DNA from: a virus
IMG/VR virus record: IMGVR_UViG_3300042934_000706
Coordinates: 1 to 24,937 of that record
Length of the DNA stretch: 24,937 nt
Strand: one strand, 5' to 3'
A program made the position numbers and the translations under genes. This document shows positions 1 to 24,285 of this stretch, piece after piece (position 1 is the first letter of the stretch; each line of letters begins with the position of its first letter). The notes below the pieces were generated by a model that saw only the letters and a program-made list of their open reading frames with translations, made no database searches and was not told where the DNA came from.

Positions 1-2
1 TG

Positions 3-1034
3 TCTCAAGTCAGTTCGGCAGATGATCTGCAAAGCGATGCGAACGCTCTTGATCTGATCAACTCCATTCTCAAGACGCTTGATCGGCTGAAAGTAACGGT
101 CTCTGATGTCATACCGGAACAGATTCTCAAAACCTATTTTGGTGGTGTAGACGAGGGAACAAAGCGGCTCATTGAAGCAGGGCTTGAGATCAAGAAAGCA
201 TCCGCACTGACGAAAGATGGCAAGGTACGGAAAGAGTTTCAGTCGTCGGTGCATCTCGAAGCGGTGCAGAACATTGTAGAGGACACCATGATGGACTTGC
301 AAGCGGCGATTCGAACGGCACAGAAGAGTGCGAAGATGAGTATTGACGGCACTCTGAAAGCTGTCAAGAAGGATATTGCAAATGGCTTAATCGTAGGCGA
401 TCCACGCAAGGTTATACAAGCGCGGGTCGCTAAATCATTTTCGGATAATGGGTTGACCTCGTTCGTTACTAGCGATGATAAGCGATTACCGCTGGATTTT
501 TATTCGCAAACAGTCGTTCGAACGAAGATGAGGACAGCGAACACAACCGGGGCGGTAAATCGGTATCTTGAAAATGATGTAAATCTGGTCAAGGTTGACA
601 AACACAGTCCAACTTGCCATGTATGTGCGCCGTACCAAGGAAAAGTTTTCTGTCCGGATGGTAGTGATGAGCGATTTCCAACTGGTCCACTCAGTCCATA
701 CCATCCGAACTGTCGCCATGTAGTCGCTCCGTATGTCTCTTACTTTCATTCAGACAGTGAGATTCAATCCGAGTTGAACAAATGGAAAGGTTTCGAATCT
801 GGTAAAGACGTTCGCTCCGCTTCTCAGAAAAAGGCATATGAGAAAGAGCAAGAGATTCGCAGAATTGCGAATCAAGAAAAAAAACAGTTTGCTAGGTGGC
901 AAATGGTGCTGGGCAAGGATGCTCCCAAGACAATAGGCGGATTCAGACGAATGAAACGGCAAAACACAGCCCATTTTCAGGAACTTCAGAGCGAATACCG
1001 CAGCATCATGCAGGGGATATCCCGGAAAGGATAA
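3..1034 (+). CDS. Phage minor capsid protein 2 (5'-truncated by window edge)
   Basis: The reading frame is open from base 3 with no start required inside the window, so the gene begins upstream; a GTG at 249 is internal and has no ribosome binding site. About 343 residues are visible. The C-terminal part has a metal-binding-like pattern, TCHVCAPYQGKVF followed by SPYHPNCRHVVAPY, which is the hallmark of the phage minor capsid/head morphogenesis family Phage_min_cap2, related to SPP1 gp7 and Mu gpF. These proteins sit at the portal vertex inside the head and are encoded just after the portal gene. The last 70 residues are lysine- and arginine-rich and probably helical. The family call rests on this motif and on position directly before the scaffold and capsid genes. 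Confidence 0.85.
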   Translation, partial: SQVSSADDLQSDANALDLINSILKTLDRLKVTVSDVIPEQILKTYFGGVDEGTKRLIEAGLEIKKASALTKDGKVRKEFQSSVHLEAVQNIVEDTMMDLQAAIRTAQKSAKMSIDGTLKAVKKDIANGLIVGDPRKVIQARVAKSFSDNGLTSFVTSDDKRLPLDFYSQTVVRTKMRTANTTGAVNRYLENDVNLVKVDKHSPTCHVCAPYQGKVFCPDGSDERFPTGPLSPYHPNCRHVVAPYVSYFHSDSEIQSELNKWKGFESGKDVRSASQKKAYEKEQEIRRIANQEKKQFARWQMVLGKDAPKTIGGFRRMKRQNTAHFQELQSEYRSIMQGISRKG

Positions 1035-1105
1035 GGTGATCTTTTCATATCTCGTCTGAGTCCGCGATAAGGGTTTGATTGTATAGATTAAGGAGGTTGC
1101 AAATT

Positions 1106-1339
1106 ATGAGACACATTGAAAAGGCTCAAAAAAGCAATTATTTACTGGTCCGATTTGCCGCAAATTATCTATGGTTTTGGATCGCTAGTTTCGGATTTAT
1201 GAGAGGACATAGCAAATTGTTCATCATAAAAGGATGCTTGAATAAGAGTATTCCATTTTGCATTATCATGGAACGTTGGCGCCGAATTGAAAATAAAGAA
1301 TTAGCTTATGCGATGATGGATAGAACAATTGAAATATGA
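1106..1339 (+). CDS. Small hypothetical protein between minor capsid and scaffold genes
   Basis: A 77-residue ORF. I chose the ATG at 1106 because it is preceded by AAGGAGG at 1090-1096 with a suitable gap; an in-frame start at 1079 lies upstream of that site. The product is basic with a hydrophobic stretch near residues 12-26 (LLVRFAANYLWFWIASFGF) and two cysteines. I do not recognise a family. The codon use is more AT-rich than in the flanking head genes and the gene is set off by about 70 bases upstream and 109 bases downstream, unlike the tight packing elsewhere in the head module. This suggests an added (moron-like) gene, but the function is unknown. Confidence 0.5.
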   Translation: MRHIEKAQKSNYLLVRFAANYLWFWIASFGFMRGHSKLFIIKGCLNKSIPFCIIMERWRRIENKELAYAMMDRTIEI

Positions 1340-1448
1340 ATCAGAGTGCTAAGTTAGGCTTATTTATTTTGTCTTTTTTCCATGACCGCAGACGTTAAAG
1401 AACAATCGTGAGAATGGTACCTGCAACCTAGAGCAGAGGAGGATATAC
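1340..1448 (+). other. Intergenic gap before scaffold gene
   Basis: I see no gene and no convincing hairpin terminator in these 109 bases. They end with the ribosome binding site AGAGGAGG of the scaffold gene. The gap is unusual within an otherwise tightly packed head operon. Confidence 0.5.
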
Positions 1449-2237
1449 ATGTTTACAAAACTGAAACTATGGATCTCGCTGATCGTTGCTTTGCTATTTC
1501 AAAAGAGGGTACCTACTGCCCAACAAGTAGAGAATGAATTGCCGTACAAATTGAATCTCCAGTACTTTGCTAGCGAGGACGGAGACGACAACGAGGACGG
1601 CGATGATGATGACGATCAGGATGATCAAGACGGTGACGACGAGGATGATGATGAGGACCAGGACGAGGAACAAACACTTGAGCAGATGATCAAAGATGAT
1701 CCAAAGCTGAAAAAACAGTTCAATCAGTTGTTTAAGAACAAGTTCGACAAGCGTCTGAAGGGTGTCGATCTGAAGAAAGCGAAGGAACTTCTCGCCAAAG
1801 AGCAGAAGGACCAGGACGACAAGAAAGACGAAGGAACCGACGAGGACGATGCTAAAACCGCTAAGCTGCAGCTTAAACTGGACCGGAAAGCGAAACGGCT
1901 ATCTGTTAAGGAATACGCCGCTGATAATGGTCAGAATCCGAAACTCGTTGCTCGGCTCATTGATCTCGACAAACTCGAACTGAATCAAGACGGTGAAGTG
2001 GATCCGGACGATCTCGAAGATGCATTTGACGCGCTGGAAGACGAGTTCCCGGATCTTTTTGCTGCAGGCGATGAAGACGAGGAAGACGATGACGATGCCG
2101 AAGATGAGAAGTCAAAGCACAAGAAAAAGAGCTCATCGTACAAACCTGGTTCCCGTCAAAAAGGAAACAAGAAGCTGAAACACGATCCATACGAATCCGG
2201 TAAGGCACGTGCACTTGCTCGTCACAAGAAAGAATGA
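1449..2237 (+). CDS. Phage scaffolding protein
   Basis: 262 residues, very acidic and charged. Residues about 42-75 are almost only Asp/Glu, followed by a helical Lys/Glu/Leu-rich region (residues about 75-190), a second acidic run (about 205-222) and a very basic C-terminus. Acid- and base-rich, coiled helical proteins between the minor capsid and major capsid genes are scaffolds, which guide procapsid assembly and leave or are degraded before DNA packaging; the basic tail would be the capsid-binding end. The short motif LNLQYFA at residues 35-41 is the usual first segment of many Firmicutes phage scaffolds. Here it follows an extra 34 residues with a hydrophobic stretch (KLWISLIVALLF). The ATG at 1449 has a strong AGAGGAGG site, so the extension looks translated. 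Confidence 0.75.
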   Translation: MFTKLKLWISLIVALLFQKRVPTAQQVENELPYKLNLQYFASEDGDDNEDGDDDDDQDDQDGDDEDDDEDQDEEQTLEQMIKDDPKLKKQFNQLFKNKFDKRLKGVDLKKAKELLAKEQKDQDDKKDEGTDEDDAKTAKLQLKLDRKAKRLSVKEYAADNGQNPKLVARLIDLDKLELNQDGEVDPDDLEDAFDALEDEFPDLFAAGDEDEEDDDDAEDEKSKHKKKSSSYKPGSRQKGNKKLKHDPYESGKARALARHKKE

Positions 2238-2249
2238 AGGTGATCACAG

Positions 2250-2540
2250 TTGGCTGATCCTAAATTCACATTGCCGTCTGGCGTGACGAACGCAAAGAGT
2301 CCGAAGTATTCAGTCGGTTCTAGCGTCACGCTGACAGCAAACCATATGCCCGGCATGACTGGCAAGACAGTAAAGGTTCTTGCAGCTGTGACCGGGACAT
2401 TTTATATCGTCAGTTTGGATGGCGAAGCACACAAATGGATGTCTGAAGGTGAAATGAAGAAAGCTGACGGCAAAACACTTACCGGAGCAGCTGCAGGTAA
2501 AGCACGTGCAGAGGCAAGACACGGAAAAATGAAGATGTGA
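2250..2540 (+). CDS. Small head-module protein with DUF1541-like fold
   Basis: 96 residues from a TTG start preceded by GAAGGTGAT at 2236-2244. The segment from residue 19 on (KYSVGSSVTLTANHMPGMTG, then HKWMSEGEMKKA) resembles the DUF1541/YdhK pattern, in which a basic strand, an H-x-PGM loop and a terminal HKW motif form a small beta-domain. DUF1541 proteins are normally cell-surface or copper-associated, so the resemblance in a capsid operon is unexpected. The C-terminus is Ala/Lys-rich. It sits between scaffold and decoration-like genes with short gaps, so it is co-expressed with the head genes and may be a virion or assembly protein. The family link is my recollection of the motif, not a search. 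Confidence 0.5.
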   Translation: MADPKFTLPSGVTNAKSPKYSVGSSVTLTANHMPGMTGKTVKVLAAVTGTFYIVSLDGEAHKWMSEGEMKKADGKTLTGAAAGKARAEARHGKMKM

Positions 2541-2553
2541 GGAGGAATAATTC

Positions 2554-2916
2554 ATGAACTTACAACCACGATTTGACACGATTTATGGTCAAAAAGAATT
2601 TATGCGTAACACGCAGGGCATGGAAGTTAAGACAGGCGGCGCAACACTGTCGGCTGCGGATTTTACCGCAGGAGATTATGTAAAGGCGGGTACAGCAGTC
2701 TTTAAGGATGTCGATGGTCTCTATCATAAGGTAGTCGCTGAAACACCTGCTACAATGACTGGCGCAGGTCTGACTATGCATGACGTTAAAATCTATGCAG
2801 GTCAGAACCCAATCGTTGGTATTCTAGCGGCTGGTCACCCACTGGAATCCAAATGCACAGGCGTGACTGCGAACTTCAAGACTGCATCCGCTGGCCGCAT
2901 TGTATTCGATATCTAA
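2554..2916 (+). CDS. Head decoration-like structural protein
   Basis: 120 residues, ATG at 2554 with GAGGAGG at 2539-2545. It is directly upstream of the major capsid gene, the place where decoration (lambda gpD-like) or capsid stabilising proteins are encoded. The composition (Gly, Ala, Thr and Val rich, with a central AGDYVKAGTAVFKDVDG segment and a terminal GRIVFDI) fits a small beta-rich protein like the head decoration family. Decoration proteins trim the outside of the expanded capsid. There is no catalytic motif. The call rests on gene position, size and composition, so it is less certain than the capsid call. Confidence 0.55.
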   Translation: MNLQPRFDTIYGQKEFMRNTQGMEVKTGGATLSAADFTAGDYVKAGTAVFKDVDGLYHKVVAETPATMTGAGLTMHDVKIYAGQNPIVGILAAGHPLESKCTGVTANFKTASAGRIVFDI

Positions 2917-2942
2917 TTTTAAATTATTAGGAGGAATGAGAA

Positions 2943-3935
2943 ATGCCATTACATCTTGATGAATTTCAACAACCGGAATTCGAAGGCTATGTTGAAAACG
3001 TACCACCGGCAAGAGTTTACCTATTGAGACGCTTCTTGCCGCAAAAACCGACGAGCGACATTGATTTCACTTACAACATCATCACAGGAAAGTACGCACA
3101 GGCCGCGTCAATCACTGGATTCAGTGCATCGGCGCCACTCCGCGATACGAAGGAACTGCAGAAAGCTTATGCTTCTGTTGCGAAGATCCAGCATATGTTC
3201 CGTCTGGACGAACGGCAGATTTTGAAGTTCAACGCGCCACGAAGCGATGAAGAAAAACGCCAGGCTGTTGATTACGTTTACGAAAACACTGACGGTCTTA
3301 TCGCTGGCGTGGACGATGTGGAAGAATTTCTGCGCGCTCAAGCGCTTTATCATGGCATTCTACAATATGACGACACAGTAAACGACGTTCATATTCATGT
3401 TGATTTTGGTGTGCCGGCAGAAAATAAATTGACCGCAACAACACCTTGGAGCGCTGTTTCCACAGCAACACCGCTCGATGATATCACTGCAGCAGTCAAC
3501 CAGTTTAAAACACAGAACCAGCGCAAAAAACCCGTAGTAATGCACCTGACTAGCGTAACTGAAGCGCTGATGCTCAAGAATGATCAAATCAAGTATCAGG
3601 TCTATGGCAACCCGACAGACAAACGACTGCTGACAAAACAAGACCTTGCCAATGTGTTCTCATCACTTGGCTTGCCACCTTATGAAATCAATGACGATGT
3701 TCTGAACCTCTACGGAACAGGCGATGAAGCACTGCTCGAAGATAACAAATTCGTACTTCTTGGCGAAAACTTGGGCAACACAATGATCGGACCGACGGCA
3801 GAAAAGAACTTCCAATCTGGAAAGTTTGTGAAGCCGAAGATTGAGGACGATCCACCACAGGAATCCGTTCGTGTCGGTGAAACAGCGTTTCCGGCGCTGC
3901 AGAAACCACAGTCTATCGTCACTATGGGCGTTTGA
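2943..3935 (+). CDS. Major capsid protein, E family (HK97 fold)
   Basis: 330 residues, ATG at 2943 preceded by AGGAGGAATGAGAA. Length and sequence pattern agree with the phage major capsid protein E family (lambda gpE-like): an N-terminal arm, a segment with PTSDIDFTYNIITG, a helix with RSDEEKRQAVDYVYE, a middle beta-region containing DVHIHVDFGVP, and a C-terminal domain with MHLTSVTEALMLKND. The protein forms the icosahedral shell around the DNA and is expected to be the most abundant virion protein. Upstream are scaffold and decoration-like genes, downstream the head-completion genes. I see no N-terminal cleavage motif and no protease gene in the visible head module; a protease could be upstream of the window. 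Confidence 0.85.
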   Translation: MPLHLDEFQQPEFEGYVENVPPARVYLLRRFLPQKPTSDIDFTYNIITGKYAQAASITGFSASAPLRDTKELQKAYASVAKIQHMFRLDERQILKFNAPRSDEEKRQAVDYVYENTDGLIAGVDDVEEFLRAQALYHGILQYDDTVNDVHIHVDFGVPAENKLTATTPWSAVSTATPLDDITAAVNQFKTQNQRKKPVVMHLTSVTEALMLKNDQIKYQVYGNPTDKRLLTKQDLANVFSSLGLPPYEINDDVLNLYGTGDEALLEDNKFVLLGENLGNTMIGPTAEKNFQSGKFVKPKIEDDPPQESVRVGETAFPALQKPQSIVTMGV

Positions 3936-3964
3936 TTCTGAATAAAAATTGAGGAGTGATTCGA

Positions 3965-4267
3965 TTGCCACTTTATTTTGCTAAAGGTTACCTTGTCGAT
4001 CATGGCAAGATTGTTAAACCAGATGAAACTATTTTTCTTGAAAAAGTACAGGCGGACAAGCTTGAGGATAAGGTTAAAGCGGCTGTGGTCGCTGATCTTT
4101 CCAAGCTTAAGCTCGCTGACCTGCAGGTAATTGCCAAGGCTGGTAGCATTGCTTACTCGGGATTGAGTAAAGACCAGCTAGTTGCAAAGCTGACTGGAAC
4201 TGAAGCGCCAGCTGAAGAAGAACAAACACCTGAAAAGCCGGCAGACACTGAAGAACCAAAAGCCTGA
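3965..4267 (+). CDS. HeH/Rho-N-like small phage protein
   Basis: 100 residues. I place the start at the TTG at 3965 because GAGGAG (3951-3956) lies at a suitable distance; the GTG at 3956 overlaps that site and cannot use it. The first 40 residues (MPLYFAKGYLVDHGKIVKPD) form a small beta-region, then LSKLKLADLQVIAKAGSIAY followed by SGLSKDQLVAKL gives a helix-extended loop-helix (HeH/SAP/Rho N-terminal) motif; the C-terminus is a Glu/Pro-rich tail. Such proteins are often found between the capsid and connector genes of Firmicutes siphoviruses. Their exact role is not settled; the motif can bind nucleic acid. Confidence 0.6.
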   Translation: MPLYFAKGYLVDHGKIVKPDETIFLEKVQADKLEDKVKAAVVADLSKLKLADLQVIAKAGSIAYSGLSKDQLVAKLTGTEAPAEEEQTPEKPADTEEPKA

Positions 4268-4284
4268 CGAAAGCAGGTGATTAC

Positions 4285-4643
4285 ATGGATTTTAATTCCG
4301 TGGACCAGTATTTAAACAGGATGCACTTTGCTGAGCTGTATAAGGCACTCGAACAGGACGGCAAAGAATCAATCATCTTTGAAGCTACTGAACTACTGAA
4401 AGATAAGTTCAGAGAATCGCTTCTAACCGATCGAATTGTCGCTCTGCAGGTCAATTACATGCTCGAAGGTGAGACGAGGAATATGAGAAACTGCGCCGGC
4501 ATGGGATCACTGGACTGTCTGCCAAAGATGTTTCGGTCAGCTTTGGTGAACAGAACGGCACAGCAACCGCGTATTCGCCAATATGCCCTGATGTGCAGTC
4601 TCTGATTGGTAAGAACCGCGCAAGCGTAGGTGAGCTGATATGA
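4285..4643 (+). pseudogene. Head-tail connector protein, with -1 frameshift at about 4471-4475
   Basis: The ATG at 4285 with AGCAGGTGATT upstream opens a frame whose first 62 residues (YLNRMHFAELYKAL, then RIVALQVNYMLEGE) match phage head-tail connector proteins. The frame then runs to a TGA at 4603-4605 through residues that do not fit the family. One base back, the frame from 4473 reads DEEYEKLRRHGITGLSAKDV and SVSFGEQNG, ending IGKNRASVGELI, the expected continuation, with TGA at 4641-4643. That stop overlaps the ATG (4640) of the next gene as ATGA, so it is the natural end. A missing G (GAGGACGAG read as GAGACGAG) explains everything. I see no slippery heptamer at the site. The connector closes the portal, so the lesion would matter unless it is a sequencing error. 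Confidence 0.75.
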
Positions 4644-4993
4644 AGCCACCTATGCCAAAGCTAGCTGATGGAGTATTGACGCTAAAACAGCCGCAGGTGG
4701 ATGAGAACGGCGAGCCAATGACTGATGATTACGGTAATCCATTAACAGTGGATCTGCCTATCAAACAGGCTCGCATTCGGAAGTCTACGAAGTTCATCCA
4801 AGCACGAGACGGTCAGCAGCATAAATGTGTTCTTGAGATTGATTTTCCAACCGACGTCGCTATTAGCGAGGGCGACGGTACCGAATACCATCCAACAGGT
4901 GCCGCATTGCAGAAGGGGAAGATCATTGCGGTGAGTGAGACTTTGAATCTCGCGGGGAACCGCGTTTATTTTCGGACGGCTTATGTCGAGTGA
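4640..4993 (+). CDS. Putative minor capsid/head closure protein
   Basis: 117 residues; ATG at 4640 overlaps the stop of the restored connector frame (ATGA), with GTAGGTGAG as ribosome binding site. The central part has ENGEPMTDDYGNPLTVDLPI, then a beta-rich region ending NLAGNRVYFRTAYVE. This matches the size, place and general pattern of the Minor_capsid_1 type head-closure (stopper) proteins of SPP1-like phages, which seal the portal after packaging and provide the docking face for the tail. The gene ends inside the next one (ATG at 4983), so translation is probably coupled. Assignment is by position and pattern. Confidence 0.6.
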   Translation: MKPPMPKLADGVLTLKQPQVDENGEPMTDDYGNPLTVDLPIKQARIRKSTKFIQARDGQQHKCVLEIDFPTDVAISEGDGTEYHPTGAALQKGKIIAVSETLNLAGNRVYFRTAYVE

Positions 4994-5471
4994 CGATTTT
5001 AATATCAAGTGGGATGGACTTGATAAACTCATTAAGACATTTGACGCGATGGAAGAATCGCTCAAAAGAAACCTTATCAGCGAGTATGCAAAATATGGGC
5101 TGCTTGTTGAAGAAGGGGCAAAGGCACTCGCTCCTCACGATACTGGTGATCTTGAAGCCAGTATCACTGCGGAAAAGGTGTCGTTCCATGGAAATTCTGT
5201 AGAAACGGCCGTTGGTTCAAAATCCAAATACGCTCTACGACGACACGAAGAACCCTATCGGAAAGGACATTTTCCTAAACACGACAATGGTTCTAAGTTC
5301 CCTGATTTTTATGCTGATGGTCGTGGGCAGATCACACGGAGCAAGCCTAACTGGCGCGGGCAAGTACCGGGGCGCAAGTATCTACAGAACGCGATCAACG
5401 CCACGGATAAGGACTATCACGAGACAAATGAACGTGTTTTAAAGAAGACTCTGGGAGGTGGAACGCTTTGA
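4983..5471 (+). CDS. HK97 gp10-like tail completion protein
   Basis: 162 residues, ATG at 4983 overlapping the previous gene by 11 bases. The N-terminal helices (LDKLIKTFDAMEESLKRNL) are followed by a long helix, then APHDTGDLEASITAEKV, the DTGxLxxSI signature of the HK97-gp10/minor capsid 2 family. The C-terminal half has GRKYLQNAINATDKDY, the usual 'P-x-R-x-hydrophobic' end domain. These proteins join the tail terminator to the head and set the head-tail interface. The next gene starts inside its stop codon (TTG at 5468). Confidence 0.8.
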   Translation: MSSDDFNIKWDGLDKLIKTFDAMEESLKRNLISEYAKYGLLVEEGAKALAPHDTGDLEASITAEKVSFHGNSVETAVGSKSKYALRRHEEPYRKGHFPKHDNGSKFPDFYADGRGQITRSKPNWRGQVPGRKYLQNAINATDKDYHETNERVLKKTLGGGTL

Positions 5472-5875
5472 TCCAGAGTTTTTTAATGCAACAAAGTAAG
5501 TTGATTTTGCCTGTACTCACTTGGTCAATTGACAATTACACAGCCGCGGATAATACCGGAACCGTGTATTCAGAAAGCAGTGGATCGCCGGATCTTTATG
5601 ATCTGAACTTTCACCGGCCGGAGTACATGGTGTTCATACGGTCGTCAGATTGGGCACTCGCGGAGCATGCAGCACGGCAAATGTTTGAGCATTTTCATAA
5701 GATGCACGATCAGCCGATTACAATCAGCAAGACGATTAAGGGACAAACAATCACAAAAAACTATTATCTTTATCTATTACAATCCCTAAGCGAACCACTG
5801 CGGGTCGGCGTTGATGATGCCGGCCTGATGCAGTGGTCTGTTAATTTTAGGGCAACTTTAAGGGAGGTTTCATAA
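5468..5875 (+). CDS. Minor capsid 3-like tail terminator protein
   Basis: 135 residues from a TTG at 5468 that overlaps the preceding TGA, with GGGAGGTGG at 5454-5462. The sequence (DLYDLNFHRPEYMVFIRSSD, then helix HAARQMFEHFHK and the strand SVNFRATLREVS) fits the Minor_capsid_3 family, whose members sit directly before the major tail protein gene and act like the tail terminator that caps the tail tube. Its stop codon is followed at once by the ATG of the tail tube fragment. Confidence 0.65.
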   Translation: MIQSFLMQQSKLILPVLTWSIDNYTAADNTGTVYSESSGSPDLYDLNFHRPEYMVFIRSSDWALAEHAARQMFEHFHKMHDQPITISKTIKGQTITKNYYLYLLQSLSEPLRVGVDDAGLMQWSVNFRATLREVS

Positions 5876-6067
5876 ATGGCAGACACAGAAAGCATTCCGT
5901 TTGGCCCTGCAACAGTCACAGTCGGAGAGGGCGTAGATGCCATCACTTTTGATGGTCAAAGCTACATGCAAGCAGAAGGCGGTCAACTGCAACTGACACC
6001 GCAGTGGTCAGATATCACGACTATTTGTCGAAACCTAATCCTATGTAAAAATATGGATTGGGGATAA
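5876..6067 (+). pseudogene. 5' fragment of the major tail (tube) protein gene
   Basis: 63 codons with a strong GGGAGG site and an ATG that touches the previous stop. Residues 1-46 (SIPFGPATVTVGEGVDAITF, then YMQAEGGQLQLTPQWSDIT) look like the start of a phage major tail protein, in the exact slot where the tube gene belongs: after minor capsid 3 and before the tail chaperones. A normal tube protein has roughly 130-200 or more residues. After SDIT the frame turns into TICRNLILCKNMDWG and stops. The remainder is not found elsewhere in the window; instead an AT-rich unrelated gene follows. I infer that an insertion or replacement removed the 3' part of the gene. Loss of the tube protein would prevent tail assembly. 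Confidence 0.65.
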
Positions 6068-6071
6068 ACAA

Positions 6072-6791
6072 ATGCTTAGCGGAAGAGAAGTAATAGAGCT
6101 GCATCACCGATTAGAATCTTGTGAAGGCACAAGAGTTACCAAAAAGATCGATGCCATTAGAATGTCATATGAAGTCTTTCGCAAGAATTATCAGAGAATC
6201 AACGTTCTGCTAGAACGCTACAGATCAGATACCGATTTTGCGTTACAACTCATAGAAGATACTGTTTCAAAAAATGATTTCTTCACAAGGATTACAACAG
6301 ATCTCCATAACTTTCTTGCTTCAGTAAAAACGTTGGTTGATCATACAAGAGTAATTATCAGAGAAGAGTATTCTGAAACCGATTTTGGAAATGAATGTGA
6401 AGAACGGAAGAACCAAACATTTATTGGTAACAATTTAGTTTCTTTTGTGCAGAATCTTAGGAACTTTGCTCTTCATAAAAAGTTGCCTATAACCGGTGCG
6501 AGAATGACTTTTTCAGCAGATGAATCTCCATCACAAGACATAAATTTACCAATTAATGAATTGATTGATTGGGATGGTTGGAACACACCTTCACAAACCT
6601 TTATAGAACAATCAGGCAATGCAATTATTTTGAAGGATATATTGGATGAATATGTAAGAATTAGTCATGATTTTTATCACTGGTTTTTCCAAAGACAATT
6701 GCAGTTTCATAACGAGGCTCTCGAAGAGTTGGACGAAATCAATTCAGCCCTTGAAAGTAACAGGCAAGACTACCTGAGAAGAATTAATTGA
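6072..6791 (+). CDS. HEPN-like protein with R-x4-H motif inserted in tail tube gene
   Basis: 239 residues; ATG at 6072, weak GGGGAT site 9 bases upstream. The product is mostly helical. It contains VSFVQNLRNFALHKKLPI, with Arg130 and His135 in the R-x4-H arrangement that marks HEPN ribonucleases of toxin and anti-phage systems. Long N-terminal helices (residues about 8-105) and a helical C-terminus surround it. The gene is clearly more AT-rich than its neighbours and lies where the 3' part of the tail tube gene should be, ending just before the terminator at 6829-6850. No viral structural role is suggested by the sequence. I infer a horizontally acquired accessory or defence gene. The motif is short and could be coincidental, so the function remains a hypothesis. 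Confidence 0.5.
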   Translation: MLSGREVIELHHRLESCEGTRVTKKIDAIRMSYEVFRKNYQRINVLLERYRSDTDFALQLIEDTVSKNDFFTRITTDLHNFLASVKTLVDHTRVIIREEYSETDFGNECEERKNQTFIGNNLVSFVQNLRNFALHKKLPITGARMTFSADESPSQDINLPINELIDWDGWNTPSQTFIEQSGNAIILKDILDEYVRISHDFYHWFFQRQLQFHNEALEELDEINSALESNRQDYLRRIN

Positions 6792-6828
6792 ATATCAATA
6801 AGAGCCTTTGATTGGCTGTTTTTCTTTT

Positions 6829-6854
6829 GGACTCCTCGGAGTCCTTTTCTTTTT
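6829..6854 (+). terminator. Rho-independent terminator before tail chaperone genes
   Basis: GGACTC, a CTCG tetraloop, then GAGTCC, followed by a T-rich run (TTTTCTTTTT). In related phages a hairpin here separates the highly expressed tail tube gene from the tail chaperones, so this one is probably the original terminator of the tube gene. A weaker AGCC/GGCT hairpin with a T-run lies just upstream at 6803-6825. Confidence 0.75.
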
Positions 6855-6882
6855 ATTATTTAATATCATGGAGGTAAATTTC

Positions 6883-7395
6883 ATGTCCACAACTATTCAA
6901 TTGAAAATTAAAGATGACCAGGGAAATACCAAGGTCGAAAATCACGAAATCGAAGAAATTAGGCTTGATCAATATATCGGAATGATGAGAGTAGTCAACG
7001 ATATCTTAAAGGAATTAAAGGGCAACGAAGGACTGCTTGATTTGCTGAACTATGTCGGCGCCGGTGATGATGAAGCTCCAACTAAAGAATTGGATCAAGC
7101 CTTTGTTGTTAATATCATCAATTCTTTTGATGCGCTTGCTGTGCGCATGCCCGAAAAAGCGATCAATCTGCTTAGCGTAGTCAGTGGAATCAAGTCAGAA
7201 GCACTCAATAAGCAGACCATGAGCACAATTATGGACGTGTACGACGCGGTGATTAGCGAAAACGACATCGAGAAGCTGATGAATCGAGCAAAAAAGTCCT
7301 TGGCGCTGACCAAAAGCAAGATCAAACTGAAAGCCTTCGTAAGCAAGCTGGCTCCAGCGCCGAAGGAAACCGTGTCAGAAACGACACAAGCCTAA
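6883..7395 (+). CDS. Tail assembly chaperone (gpG-like)
   Basis: 170 residues. I chose the ATG at 6883 because ATGGAGGTAAATTTC precedes it; a longer frame from 6808 would run through the terminator hairpin and is unlikely. The product is acidic and helical, with an N-terminal beta-region (TTIQLKIKDDQG) and a Lys-rich C-terminal helix. Its place between the tail tube and the tape measure identifies it as the first tail assembly chaperone, equivalent to lambda gpG, which coats the tape measure protein while the tube polymerises. It is expected to be made in excess over the frameshifted GT product. Confidence 0.75.
   Translation: MSTTIQLKIKDDQGNTKVENHEIEEIRLDQYIGMMRVVNDILKELKGNEGLLDLLNYVGAGDDEAPTKELDQAFVVNIINSFDALAVRMPEKAINLLSVVSGIKSEALNKQTMSTIMDVYDAVISENDIEKLMNRAKKSLALTKSKIKLKAFVSKLAPAPKETVSETTQA
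7290..7296 (+). promoter_or_regulatory. Slippery site A AAA AAG for programmed -1 frameshift
   Basis: In the gpG reading frame the codons are GCA AAA AAG, so the heptamer A AAA AAG is in the correct zero-frame phase. From here the -1 frame is open without a stop to 7730. Tail chaperone pairs of long-tailed phages use exactly this arrangement to make a G-T fusion. I did not identify a clear downstream stimulatory structure. Confidence 0.65.
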
Positions 7396-7730
7396 AAGAA
7401 GCGATTATTTACAGATTGGCTCCATTACTTGGTGGACGATCAGAAGTCCTGATCACTCCGATGGTGGAGCTTTTTATGTACCTTGAACTGGAAATGACGA
7501 AAGACAAAGCAAGCGCCCGTGAGCACGAATACGAGCGTTATTTTGCGTTCATTTCTCAATGTATGGCTTCGCCTTATGCGGATCCGGACAAGCGAGAAGA
7601 ATTCCGGCAATCGTTAATGCCGCGTGATGCTGACAATCATCCAAAGATCGAACAGAAATGGAACTTTGAACTGCTCAAAAAGCTGAAATCCAAACAGAAA
7701 GGAGGGGGAAAACCACATGGCAACAGTTGA
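7296..7730 (+). CDS. Tail assembly chaperone T extension (gpGT fusion part)
   Basis: This is the -1 frame read after the slippery site; it continues past the gpG stop at 7393-7395. It has no ATG at its beginning (only a TTG at 7416 with no ribosome binding site), which argues for expression by frameshifting. The fusion would have about 282 residues: 138 of gpG and 144 of T. The T part holds EAIIYRLAPLLGG, a helical HEYERYFAFISQCMASPYAD and a basic C-terminus. In lambda the T domain links the chaperone complex to the major tail protein. Its end overlaps the tape measure start at 7717. Confidence 0.7.
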   Translation, partial: VLGADQKQDQTESLRKQAGSSAEGNRVRNDTSLKEAIIYRLAPLLGGRSEVLITPMVELFMYLELEMTKDKASAREHEYERYFAFISQCMASPYADPDKREEFRQSLMPRDADNHPKIEQKWNFELLKKLKSKQKGGGKPHGNS

Positions 7731-10700
7731 AGAACTTCGTGCTGATTTTACAGCCACATTCGGAAGCATGACAGCCGGTATTCGGACAATCCGGCAGGCT
7801 TTGCAAGGCATTGGGCAATCCAGTGAAGAAGCGTCTCAGAAGTCTAATCGTGCCTTTAAAACCTTGGGGAGTACATTGGATAATCTTCAAACTGAGTTGA
7901 AAAAAACTGGCAAGCAGAATGAGTTTAAAGATCTGAATACTTCCATCGAAAAGGCTCAGAAGGAACTCAAAGAGACTGGACAAGTCAGCGAGCAATCGAT
8001 GAAGCAGTTGCAGACAGCTGTTCAGCAATCCAAAACAAAGCTAGGAACTTTAGGGGATGATGGCAAGAAGAATATGCAGCAGTTCGCGCCGATCTTGGAG
8101 AAGGTTGATAAACAGCTTCAACAGTTGGGCGTAAAAAACGGTCTCGATCAATTGACGGAAGATCAAAAGAAAGCTGAACTGCAAACGAAAAAGTTGTCCG
8201 AAGTCGTCGATGATCAAACCAAAAAGTTGTCCGAAGTCGTCGATGATCAAACCAAAAAGTTGGAAGACGAGAACAACCGATATAAAGACCTGTCCGCGGG
8301 TATCCTGGGGGCGGGTAGCAAGTCTCAACAGTTACGCGAGAAGTCTGAACATCTTACAAATGTGATGAAGATTCAGGCTGAAACGGTCGATGTCTTGAAG
8401 CGGAAATATAACGATTCTGTATCCGCTGTTGGGAAAAATGCTGACGAGACAAAGCGACTAGAAAGCGCATTGAATCATGCTTCTGATAGCATGAAAAACA
8501 CGGAGAATGATTTAAAACAGACTAACGCAACAATCTCTGCTCAGTCCACTCTTTGGGGCCGTATGAATACACGATTAGGCGATGCAAAACAAAGATTTCA
8601 AAGCCTTGAAGACTCCGGCAGCACAGTGGCAAGGACATTCGGAATTGCAACTGCAGTCATTGGCGGAGGACTTGGGCTGACCGTTAAAAAGGCAGCTGAT
8701 TTTGAACAAGCGATGTCCAATGCTAAATCTGTTATGGATCCGGCTGATGTGAAAAAATATAGTAGTGCTCTTGAACAATTGGCAATTACAGCCGGAAGCA
8801 AAACGGTATATAGTGCCACAGAAGCAGCGGAAGCTATCGGCGAACTTCAGAAAGCTGGCGTTTCTACTTCCCAAATTATGCATGGCGCACTATATGGCTC
8901 CTTAAACCTTGCCACTGCTGGTGAACTTGACCTGAAAGACGCTGCAGAAATTGCATCAACCGCACTGAATGCATTCAAAAAAGACAATTTAAGTGTTGCA
9001 AAAGCGGCGGATATTTTATCTGGTGCGGCTAACGCCAGTGCAACAGACGTTGGAGAATTAAAGTTCTCTCTTTCAATGGTATCTGGTGTCGCTTCGTTAG
9101 CTGGAATGTCCTTTAAAGATACCGCAACGGCACTTGCCGTGTTTGCTCAGCACTCAATGAAGGGCAGCGATGCCGGTACATCATTAAAAACGATGCTCTT
9201 AAATATGCATCCTCAAACACAAGCGGCAGCCAATGAGTTCGAACGATTGGGCTTGCTGACATTTGATGCGTCTCAAGCAATGACGCTTTTACGTGCGCAT
9301 GGAATCAAGCCACTTTCTGATGACCAGGATAGGCTTATGAGTCAAATCACTCAATTATCCGTGAAGATGTCGGGGGCAAAGGAAGGTACAAAAGCGCAGG
9401 AGAAAGCATTCAAGGATTTAACAATGCAATCTGGTGCGCTTCATTCTGCTTTTTATGACCAGCATGGTGACCTAAAAAATCTCGATGACATCGCTCAACT
9501 TCTTACCACTCACATGAAGGGTATGACTTCAGAGCAGCTGACAAATTCTTTCAAGACAATGTTTGGTGGAGACGCCATTCGCGGTGCTGGATATTTATTT
9601 CAAGAGGGCGCTAAAGGTGTCGATAAGATGGCGGCCAGCATGGATAAGATTAAAGCTGCTGATGTCGCAAAGCAAAAGATGGATAACTTCAAGGGAGTAT
9701 TGGAACAGTTAAGGGGCTCCTTGGAAACGGCTAGCATTACCATTGGAGAGAAAATGTTGCCTGCTTTGCGCGCGTTAACGAGTATTGTTCAAAAAGCGGT
9801 TGATTGGTTTAATTCACTTCCTGAGCCAGTTCAGCATTTTATCGCAATCGGTGCCGGATTAACTGCGGCTCTTCTAGGTGTAGTTGCAGCAATGGGATTT
9901 GTTGCGATGGGTATTGGTGGAGCAATAAAAGCAATTAAAGCATTTATTGATCTTATGATTAGATTTAGAGTTCAGGCTGCACTTGGGAGTAAATCAGCTA
10001 AAACCTTTGGTGCAAGTGCTGCGGTTGCAGGAAAGGAAATGGACACGGCCGGCGGTAAGATGTCCGGTGCAGGTGGAAAGATTAAAGGCTTGCATGGAAT
10101 TCTTGGACTTGCTGGCGGAGCTTTAATGATGTTTGGTGGTAAGTGGGGCATGATTTCGGGAATAGTTATGAATTTCTTACCTGAAATTATGAATGTTGGT
10201 AAGGGCATTCTTTCATTTGCTCGTGTGGCACTTACTGGCGGAGCGGCAGCAGAAGGACTGGCAGGCGGCCTTGGTGGTACAGCGACTATACTCGAAATAC
10301 TCGGTGGGCCGATCGGTTGGATTATTCTAGGCGTCACCACTTTGGCAACAGCTTTTTATCTTGCTTACAAGAACATCAAGCCATTCCACGATTGGGTTGA
10401 CAGGACGGCATCATCTCTAAAAGACGGTTTTGTGGGCGCGGTAAACAAAGTCAAAGATTTCTTTCAGCCGATGATCAAAACGACTATTGAGTGGGGTAAA
10501 AGCGTTGATAAAGCAACGCAAACTGCTCTCAATGGATACGTCAAACTGTCAGATCAAGCACAAAGGAAGCTTGAAGAACTTGTGATCACCGGTAAAAAGG
10601 TTGGGAAACAAGATGTTGCCAACCTAGTTAAGCCATACAAGCAAATGGCTGATCAGATCATTGGACATTTTGAACGTATGGACAAACAATCTGAGAATGC

Positions 10701-18791: not shown

Positions 18792-19517
18792 ATGGATGTA
18801 TCAATTATAGAAAATTTCGATCAAGTATTAAGTATTATTTCAATAATTGGAACTTTATTGTTGGTATTTGAAAGCTTAATAAACAGTTTTGACGCAACTG
18901 AAGTTGAAAAGAAGCTAATGACAAATTCGAAACGTCTTTCAATTTTTGCGACAAAGATCTTGACGCTATCTATTATCCTATCGATTGTGGTTGTAATTCA
19001 AGCATCTTCAGATGGGAAAATGTCAAATGATAACAGGATCAATATTGCTTCGTTTTTAGCATTAACGCTTTTAATATTCATGGTTTACTTTGTCATTATG
19101 GGCATTTTTAAATTTTATATATCAATGTACGCGGTGCGGTATAATTTTCTCATTGACATGTCAGAACATGGAAAATGGTATTTAAGGAGAAGAATAAATA
19201 AAAAACAATTATTACTAATGATTGATAACCGCCATCTCGTAATTAATTATGAGGATATTAACAAGAAGCCTATAACAATGGAAAAAATTCCATACTCAAT
19301 AAGATATAAAAATATTAACAAATGGAGTATAAAAAATACTATGATTTCATTGGCTCTTTTTCTTTTAATGTTTATAATTGGGGCTATTGTGTTATTTTTT
19401 GTGAAAAATCCAATTTATGCAGTTTCTTATTTCACTTTAGCAGTCTTATTTCTTGCTTTTTCGGTTTTCATTATTACGATAAAATTATTAATTAAAAGAG
19501 AAAAATCTTATAAATGA
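18792..19517 (+). CDS. Multi-pass membrane protein, accessory (moron-like)
   Basis: 241 residues, ATG at 18792 with AGAGGTGATT before it. Five likely membrane helices: residues about 10-30, 50-70, 85-110, 183-205 and 212-235, with a positively charged soluble loop (about 115-180) between the third and fourth. I recognise no family. It is strongly AT-rich compared with the tail and lysis genes around it and has its own candidate promoter, so it is probably acquired cargo. Membrane proteins of this kind in late prophage regions can exclude superinfecting phages or modify the cell, but nothing in the sequence shows which. It could also belong to the lysis cassette given that the holin gene follows 21 bases later. 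Confidence 0.6.
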   Translation: MDVSIIENFDQVLSIISIIGTLLLVFESLINSFDATEVEKKLMTNSKRLSIFATKILTLSIILSIVVVIQASSDGKMSNDNRINIASFLALTLLIFMVYFVIMGIFKFYISMYAVRYNFLIDMSEHGKWYLRRRINKKQLLLMIDNRHLVINYEDINKKPITMEKIPYSIRYKNINKWSIKNTMISLALFLLMFIIGAIVLFFVKNPIYAVSYFTLAVLFLAFSVFIITIKLLIKREKSYK

Positions 19518-21817: not shown

Positions 21818-22582
21818 GTGGACAAAATCATTTCTGTTTTATTATCTATTTTAACCTTGTTTTCGTTTGGTACAGGTATTGTTTCTAATGTCATTTTCTT
21901 ACCCGATAAAAATGAACTCGATAAAATATTATCCACCAGGCAAAAGAATATACAGGACAACATTTTTATAACAATCATATTAGCTGTATGTTTGTCATTA
22001 GTTACTATTGTATTGGGAGTAGGATTAAGTGAATTTCTTGTGCTTCCAAAGAAGGTATATAAGCTTATTGTATCAATAATATTTATACTTATTTTAATAT
22101 CTGTAATCTATTTTCTTTTTAAATGTAATAACAAAAATAATAAATCAGAATTCAAATCTGATAATTGGATTATTTTTTACTATATCTCAGTAATTTTATT
22201 TTTGATTTCTATTTCTTCATCTATATCAGTACAAACTAATAAATTGGCTTGGCAGATGTTTATAACGATTTGGGTAATTAACATCTTTTTTTGCTTTTTT
22301 TTCATGTTCTTTTTTGTAATATTATCAAGTATTTACAGAAAAAATATTAATCGCTCTATTTACAAAATGAAACGTATTGAGGAAGTTGACAAACAACTTA
22401 AGCGACTTGTATTTGTATACTCAATTGATGATAATCGTCAAGCATTAACATTTCGTCGATGCTTAAATGATGATGGAAAATTAAAACAATCTCCATATTT
22501 TATTTATTATATCAAAGAAAATATTCTAATCCGATATGATAAAACGATTGATCAAACGGACACAAAAAAATTAAGTCAATAA
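21818..22582 (+). CDS. AT-rich multi-pass membrane protein, unknown
   Basis: 254 residues from GTG at 21818, with AGGGAGT seven bases upstream. Five likely membrane helices: about residues 4-27, 49-73, 82-102, 118-140 and 146-172. The last 80 residues are soluble and basic (SIYRKNINRSIYKMKRIEE, then DNRQALTFRRCLNDDG and YYIKENILIRYDK). I do not recognise the family. It lies after the lysis cassette, in the zone where temperate phages of Gram-positives carry lysogenic-conversion genes, and is much more AT-rich than the structural genes. A role in superinfection exclusion or cell-surface change is possible but not shown. It resembles the protein at 18792 in its membrane layout only. Confidence 0.6.
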   Translation: MDKIISVLLSILTLFSFGTGIVSNVIFLPDKNELDKILSTRQKNIQDNIFITIILAVCLSLVTIVLGVGLSEFLVLPKKVYKLIVSIIFILILISVIYFLFKCNNKNNKSEFKSDNWIIFYYISVILFLISISSSISVQTNKLAWQMFITIWVINIFFCFFFMFFFVILSSIYRKNINRSIYKMKRIEEVDKQLKRLVFVYSIDDNRQALTFRRCLNDDGKLKQSPYFIYYIKENILIRYDKTIDQTDTKKLSQ

Positions 22583-22914: not shown

Positions 22915-23568
22915 ATGAGTGATAAAATAGATATTCATGCATATCATGGAACATATTCTTCTGCAGCGCAGGATATTGTGAAAAACAATTTTACCATCTC
23001 CACAAGGGATGATAATTGGCTTGGTCAAGGAGTTTATTTCTATAGAGAAGATCCTGAACAGGCATTAACATGGGCTGTTGTTAAGATAAAGCAAAATAAT
23101 GCGTTAGGATCGCTTTTAGGGGAAAGTGCGCAAGTTATTAAGACAATTATTCAAATTGATGAAAACTGTTTTTTAAATATAGATACTCGATCCGGATTTT
23201 TTAAATTTCAAGATCATTTCTTTAGTGTTAAATCCCAAATTCCTGCGTTAAAGGTTAAAAGCAATGGGAGTGAAGGAAAGAAAAAAATCAGGTGCTTTGT
23301 GATGGATTTGTTGCCTGAGGATATCAAAGTCATTCAAAACAGTTTTCATGTTCAGTCAAAGAGGGTATTAAAATATTTGGAAGATGATTTGGATATATGT
23401 TTATTTGGAACTCAAATCTGTGTGCGCGATATTAATTTATTGGATAAGAGTACATTTACAATGACCAAGTCAAGAAAAATATTTAATAATCAAATGGTCG
23501 TTAGCAGGAGAAAACCAATAAAGAATAAATTAATAAAATTTGGTGAAACTGCTAAAGGAGGACGATAA
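22915..23568 (+). CDS. ADP-ribosyltransferase-like toxin of a TAC (CmdTAC-like) operon
   Basis: 217 residues, ATG at 22915 with AGAGG a few bases upstream. The N-terminus has HAYHGTYSSAAQDIV (His11), then DDNWLGQGVYFYREDPEQA (Tyr41) and LTWA. YHGT followed some 25 residues later by W-G-x-G-V-Y-F is the core of PARP-like (H-Y-x type) ADP-ribosyltransferases, including DUF3990-like proteins; the His and Tyr bind NAD. I cannot place the third catalytic residue with certainty. The C-terminus is strongly basic (SRRKPIKNKLIKF), which would suit an RNA or nucleic-acid target. The gene is followed after two bases by a small acidic gene and then a SecB-like gene. In CmdTAC systems of Gram-negatives the toxin is an mRNA ADP-ribosyltransferase, so I infer the same arrangement here. 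Confidence 0.7.
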   Translation: MSDKIDIHAYHGTYSSAAQDIVKNNFTISTRDDNWLGQGVYFYREDPEQALTWAVVKIKQNNALGSLLGESAQVIKTIIQIDENCFLNIDTRSGFFKFQDHFFSVKSQIPALKVKSNGSEGKKKIRCFVMDLLPEDIKVIQNSFHVQSKRVLKYLEDDLDICLFGTQICVRDINLLDKSTFTMTKSRKIFNNQMVVSRRKPIKNKLIKFGETAKGGR

Positions 23569-23570
23569 TC

Positions 23571-23837
23571 ATGACTAAAGTGATACCAAATGCAAAAATT
23601 CTTGAAGTCGCAGAGCGTTACGGAATCCAAGTTGACTTTGATGGAAAACCGGGTTTTTTCATTGATGATCAAGAGGTTACCTTTGATGATCTTTTTGATG
23701 ATTTTTTTAACACTACTGTAGAAGATGAGATACAAGTTGATTTTAAACTTAAAAAGTCTCAAACAAACATTCATGTAAATGACGCGGCGATAAATATGGA
23801 TCGTCAGCAGAGCATTTTACTTGCTGGAGCTGCTTAA
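23571..23837 (+). CDS. Small acidic protein, candidate antitoxin of TAC operon
   Basis: 88 residues, ATG at 23571 with a strong AAAGGAGG (23554-23561) located inside the end of the toxin-like gene. The centre is very acidic (DDQEVTFDDLFDDFFNTTVE), opposite in charge to the basic C-terminus of the toxin-like protein. The last 20 residues (NDAAINMDRQQSILLAGAA) are less charged and end in a hydrophobic patch, which could serve as the chaperone-addiction segment that a SecB-like protein recognises. I do not see a helix-turn-helix, so if it represses the operon it does so through another fold or not at all. Identity as antitoxin is inferred from size, charge and position. Confidence 0.6.
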   Translation: MTKVIPNAKILEVAERYGIQVDFDGKPGFFIDDQEVTFDDLFDDFFNTTVEDEIQVDFKLKKSQTNIHVNDAAINMDRQQSILLAGAA

Positions 23838-23838
23838 T

Positions 23839-24285
23839 ATGGATTTTAAACTTTCGTTTGATGATTATCATGTAATTGAAACAGTATATAAAAGGGTGCC
23901 GAATAATGATTTCCAAGAATCAATTAGCCCTCAATTTAATGTTAGAATAAAGTATGCTGACAAGAATTATTCAAAAGCATCTATTTTGTTGACGATTGAA
24001 CTTGGAGACAAGGCTTTAAAACAAAACTCTGTCTATGTTAAGGCAAAAATTATGGGTATATTTTCTTTAGAAGTTAATACACAAGAAGTAGAGGAAGATA
24101 TAAATTCATTTTATAAAATTAATGCGTTAGCTATTCTTTATCCTTATATAAGGTCATTAGTATCGGATCTTACTGGTAAAGGAAACGAAGCACCATTAAT
24201 TTTACCCCCGATGAATATAATTCAAATGGTAGAGGATAAAGAATTGGTAGAGGAAAAAGTAGATCCTCAAATTACCAAGGTGTGA
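23839..24285 (+). CDS. SecB-like chaperone of TAC operon
   Basis: 148 residues, ATG at 23839 one base after the preceding stop, with GGAG nine bases upstream; a TTG at 23821 would overlap the antitoxin gene and is less likely. The N-terminal half is beta-rich (FNVRIKYADKNYSKASILLT). The C-terminal half holds SFYKINALAILYPYIRSLVS then DLTGKGNEAPLILPPMNIIQ, which corresponds to the SecB pattern in which a helix with a 'LFPYAR-x2-I' core is followed by a loop and 'P-x-L-x-L-x-P-x-N'. SecB proteins are tetrameric holdases of about 150 residues, matching this length. Gram-positives lack the classical export SecB, so a phage-linked copy beside a toxin-like gene points to a TAC chaperone that stabilises the antitoxin. 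Confidence 0.8.
   Translation: MDFKLSFDDYHVIETVYKRVPNNDFQESISPQFNVRIKYADKNYSKASILLTIELGDKALKQNSVYVKAKIMGIFSLEVNTQEVEEDINSFYKINALAILYPYIRSLVSDLTGKGNEAPLILPPMNIIQMVEDKELVEEKVDPQITKV

Follow-up and report, generated by a model that had tools for sequence, protein, structure and literature searches.

The head-to-tail connector gene of a viral genome is divided between two reading frames, which raises the question of whether the gene has been broken by a real mutation, misread during sequencing or assembly, or organized for ribosomal recoding. The stretch analyzed here, referred to as the window, is the whole virus record IMGVR_UViG_3300042934_000706 (G000; 24,937 bases). An initial annotation of this DNA had proposed a single-base frameshift in the connector gene, caused by a missing G, and had found no heptamer suitable for programmed slippage. 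Searches with the window returned no distant DNA match in the phages collection, no plasmid match and no Rfam match, and neither an integrase nor an attachment site was found in it.

One protein in two reading frames

The gene (4285–4643) lies between the capsid and stopper genes, and its single protein is spread over two frames, with residues 1–63 up to 4473 and the remainder in the -1 frame. The first half matches positions 3–65 of the 122-position phrog_10959 profile (E = 2.1e-13) and the second half matches the adjoining positions 66–109 (E = 5.8e-8), which, together with the unsplit homologues described below, bears out the initial view that the two frames carry consecutive parts of a single protein. 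The translations agree with that view in detail: the 63 zero-frame residues end in YMLEGE, the -1 frame translation from 4473 begins DEEYEKLRRHGITGLSAKDV, and its terminal TGA (4641–4643) overlaps the ATG of the next gene (4640–4642) as ATGA. Another TGA of the -1 frame, at 4470–4472, lies directly 5' of the second half. The zero frame remains open past the break, giving 106 residues in all, of which the last 43 are unrelated to the family. There is no homopolymer of at least five bases anywhere in the gene. Coordinates of the adaptor and of neighboring features are collected in Table 1.

Table 1. Positions in the window of the adaptor gene, its break and related features of the morphogenesis module.
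Feature	Position	Strand	Remarks
Adaptor gene, zero frame	4285–4605	+	63 homologous residues (4285–4473), then 43 out-of-frame residues
Adaptor second half, -1 frame	4473–4643	+	No ATG or TTG start; TGA overlaps stopper ATG
Site of one-base deletion relative to intact homologues	4471–4475	+	DNA alignment; same in L015
Head-to-tail stopper homologue (phrog_20034), intact	4640–4993	+	Named by gene order relative to 055SW001
HK97 gp10-like tail completion protein, intact	4983–5471	+	Family match
Tail terminator (PF12691), intact	5468–5875	+	Family match
Tail-tube gene cut to 63 residues	5876–6067	+	About 50 homologous residues left of about 190
Low-GC segment replacing 3' part of tube gene	6019–6848	+	GC 0.354; unrelated to relatives
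AAAAAAG slip site in tail assembly chaperone gene (6880–7395 / 7416–7730)	7290–7296	+	Also in L045, L042, L016

Intact homologues and a second record of the phage

A search of viral contigs with the family alignment yields 24 loci, all of which were translated. The adaptor is open in one frame through the break point in 23 of them, and the sole split copy (L053) comes from a further record of this phage, L015 (IMGVR_UViG_3300042923_000141; 14,661 bases). In the window the conserved C-terminus is not part of a single open reading frame with the rest of the protein, being split from it at 4471–4475. Alignment with intact homologues, a check proposed in the initial annotation, leaves the window gene one base short near this position and, with homologues annotated as head-to-tail adaptors, supports a single-base frameshift in a head-tail connector gene. 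The missing G is a different matter: the residue at the break in the closest homologues differs from the one that had been assumed, more than one placement of the deletion fits, and the identity of the lost base cannot be fixed. In its current form the gene appears to be a phrog_10959 pseudogene and no longer a working member of that family.

In genome_contigs a single relative was found, a locus of Sporolactobacillus terrae DSM 11697 (L016), where the adaptor is in one frame; this locus (8,357 bases) has the same sequence as L019 of record 2711768088, and the two are not independent. Across 15 genomes belonging to the S. terrae genus, the adaptor family occurs in one, S. terrae itself, again in one frame. 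A Sporolactobacillus-like host is suggested for the phage. Two relatives have irregularities of their own. The minor head gene of the S. terrae prophage is split in two frames by four extra bases (L016, ∼1020–1035), and record 2711768088 is identical at this split, so that a broken structural gene is also present in a relative. The adaptor of Bacillus phage PM1 (L023, 3501–3854) has an unusual C-terminus compared with the VGRLI-like end of most relatives, possibly reflecting a frameshift near the gene end.

From base 4123 to its end, L015 is 100% identical to window positions 1–10539 (10,539 bases) and carries the same deletion; the two are separately bounded contigs of one phage that may share reads or a study and so may not be independent. 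Identity over this length lowers the likelihood of a one-off error in assembly. The remaining form of this explanation, in which the phage possesses the base and both records took over the same wrong call from reads or chemistry that they share, is unlikely. Although the two records have a 10.5 kb identical stretch in common and possibly come from one study, two separately bounded contigs concur, and the lack of homopolymers noted above also argues against a miscall.

Identity and predicted fold of the adaptor

Homologues are matched in 11 phage records, and six Bacillus phage records annotate them as head-to-tail adaptor; PHROGs lists the family, phrog_10959, as "unknown function". The window adaptor belongs to the same sequence family as gp18 of Bacillus phage 055SW001 (MN176229) and its relatives, and identity to the intact homologue from locus L005 is 35% over 92% of the latter. 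Gene order in 055SW001 is also that of the window: scaffold, decoration, capsid, a small gene, adaptor, stopper, tail protein, terminator, tube, chaperone and tape measure. The two genomes differ in that the adaptor and tube genes of 055SW001 are intact, whereas in the window the former is split by one base and the latter truncated.

An AlphaFold2 model was prepared for the intact L005 homologue from an alignment of 21 sequences. Mean pLDDT is 68; residues 1–63 are confidently predicted and helical, and residues 64–96 score below 50. A Foldseek search with this model gives no significant match, and a sequence search of solved structures likewise gives none, its best hit (E = 0.31) being an unrelated protein. 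When the best 84 chains are re-aligned, portal-adaptor, head-to-tail interface, portal, neck and connector entries take the top five places (Z 7.6–4.7). The top chain is the T1 portal-adaptor (Z 7.6, rmsd 7.5, 92 aligned, with a model that is poorly predicted at 64–96), and SPP1 gp15 is also among the 84 (Z 4.0, rmsd 5.9, 83 aligned). According to PMC6316719, gp15 occupies in the gp6/gp15/gp16 connector of SPP1 the same gene-order place as the window adaptor, which also has a predicted helical core; the likeness consists of gene order and a weak fold match, with no significant sequence match. Gene order, homologue annotation and the weak fold match together point to a head-to-tail adaptor like SPP1 gp15.

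The location of the break within this fold bears on whether this lineage could simply have a shorter adaptor, with the 106-residue product of the zero frame being functional. Its helical core (residues 1–63) would be complete, and no part of the model is better predicted, but residues E65, R72, G74, I100 and V104 (L005 numbering), which are invariant, and a near-invariant C-terminal motif all fall in the second half. As described in PMC9701221, SPP1 gp15 binds the portal mainly through its C-terminus, its hairpin faces gp16, and replacement of five C-terminal residues abolishes stable portal binding. A functional short adaptor is thus extremely improbable.

Programmed frameshifting and re-initiation

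Recoding, in which a -1 ribosomal shift at the break yields full-length adaptor and the gene is functional, would account for the purifying selection acting on the -1 frame, and weak in-phase tetramer sites do exist downstream of the break, for example at 4485 and 4539. The TGA at 4470–4472, however, confines any slip to that point or later, and no strict in-phase X_XXY_YYZ heptamer is present in the usable overlap at 4440–4606; within this interval the initial statement that no slip heptamer exists is correct. An in-phase TTTAAAC at 4311 was excluded as a slip site, being upstream of that stop. By contrast, a conserved AAAAAAG, found also in three relatives, lies in the gene for the tail assembly chaperone in this genome and serves as a positive control for programmed -1 frameshifting. 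Nor is the two-frame layout conserved: none of the other 23 adaptor loci has it, and the finding that had been named in advance as favoring slippage, a two-frame organization in homologues, is absent from all of them. Programmed slippage was rejected on these two grounds, and recoding at the adaptor is highly improbable. Re-initiation of the second half was rejected as well, since the -1 frame offers neither ATG nor TTG; its candidate starts are weak codons and a GTG that comes late, at 4593.

Selection on the second half

Comparison of the second half with that of L003 reveals 11 differences, 10 of which are at third codon positions of the -1 frame; under equal rates, the binomial chance of at least 10 of 11 third-position differences is 1.3e-4. 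The corresponding dN is 0.012 against a dS of 0.28. The second half would therefore seem to have been under selection while most of the divergence accumulated; the deletion would be recent because the differences are almost all silent. These figures are equally expected if the deletion is an error or if the protein is still made, and they do not discriminate among these cases; apparent maintenance of the second half is compatible with a shared miscall. The other head and tail genes that were compared are all open and under purifying selection.

A second break, in the tail-tube gene

This genome also has a broken tail-tube gene, a break that is new here, having been absent from the initial annotation, and that provides a context for the adaptor deletion. 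With the 188-position phrog_2175 profile, the sole match in G000 and in G002 spans positions 2–50, whereas G003, G004, G005 and G007 are matched almost fully. A tube open reading frame of 183–208 residues is found in 20 of the 24 loci. Of the remaining four, L053 is truncated (same phage), L004 is cut by the contig end, and L066 and L067 give no match, other open reading frames occupying the tube position in L066. Neither record contains a second full copy of the adaptor or the tube.

The segment that replaces the 3' part of the tube gene differs in composition from the preceding module (GC 0.354 in ∼6019–6848 versus 0.468 in 1356–6018) and contains an open reading frame of 239 residues (6072–6791) and a terminator-like hairpin (6829–6844). 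Among viral contigs this frame is found only in that of L015; it has no match in the phages collection, and the 15 genomes from the S. terrae genus lack it. Its one weak PHROG match, phrog_12680, is of unassigned function. A low-GC stretch of ∼295 bases (0.353) at 1061–1355, between the minor head and scaffold genes, has no counterpart in the relatives compared. Neither of these low-GC segments showed transposon ends; direct repeats are limited to short two-copy ones in 5900–6950, with none in 1000–1460. The tape measure gene has a 33-base tandem repeat of 2.5 copies at 8182–8262.

A large replacement in the tube gene is inexplicable by base-calling and weighs further against a shared sequencing error at the adaptor, even though the module genes other than the tube are open, as such an error would lead one to expect.

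Defence-like and other cargo

A three-gene operon at 22915–24285 resembles PD-T4-9 and CmdTAC, two names that we take to denote one system. It encodes a PARP-like protein (PADLOC PD-T4-9_A, E = 3.6e-4), a small middle protein and a SecB-like protein (PD-T4-9_C, E = 4e-18; Pfam SecB), and is likely, from these matches, to be toxin-antitoxin-chaperone defence cargo. CmdTAC is described in PMC11618068, and both terms occur in PMC9519451. Two very low-GC open reading frames with no confident family match, at 18792–19517 (GC 0.27) and 21818–22582 (GC 0.25), are probably further cargo. The low-GC cargo of the element includes the CmdTAC-like operon.

Discussion

The divided adaptor gene is best explained, with a probability of roughly 0.78, by a real and recent deletion of one base in a decaying prophage. 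The adaptor gene of this siphophage or prophage would thereby be inactivated: translation would yield 63 correct residues, corresponding to the predicted helical core, followed by 43 out-of-frame residues, and would terminate at 4605. With SPP1 gp15 as the model, this product would be missing the stopper-facing hairpin and the portal-plugging C-terminus, and heads could presumably not be joined to tails. On this analogy the adaptor has probably lost its function.

Particle genes have been lost, as is characteristic of a defective prophage, in that adaptor and tail tube are both broken, and because both breaks are in one genome a defective prophage is the simplest account. The element is most likely of this kind, with morphogenesis genes released from selection and with integration that we infer. 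Because all other compared module genes are open, the decay would be young; it is seen in two genes only. According to PMC7744054, incomplete (cryptic) prophages preferentially lose genes for replication, packaging and particle release, whereas in the window most structural genes are still open and two are broken. That the element has abandoned tailed particles, the prophage becoming a resident defence island or obtaining tails from a related intact prophage, is improbable; capsid, packaging and lysis genes are kept, as is the CmdTAC-like defence operon.

Understood as a recent deletion in a decaying prophage, the divided gene represents ordinary gene decay and is mainly of use for annotation, locating the break within the adaptor family. 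The adaptor frameshift should not be taken as recoding, even though the chaperone gene in this window does have a real site of the programmed type, and a larger second break, in the tail-tube gene, is established for the same phage.
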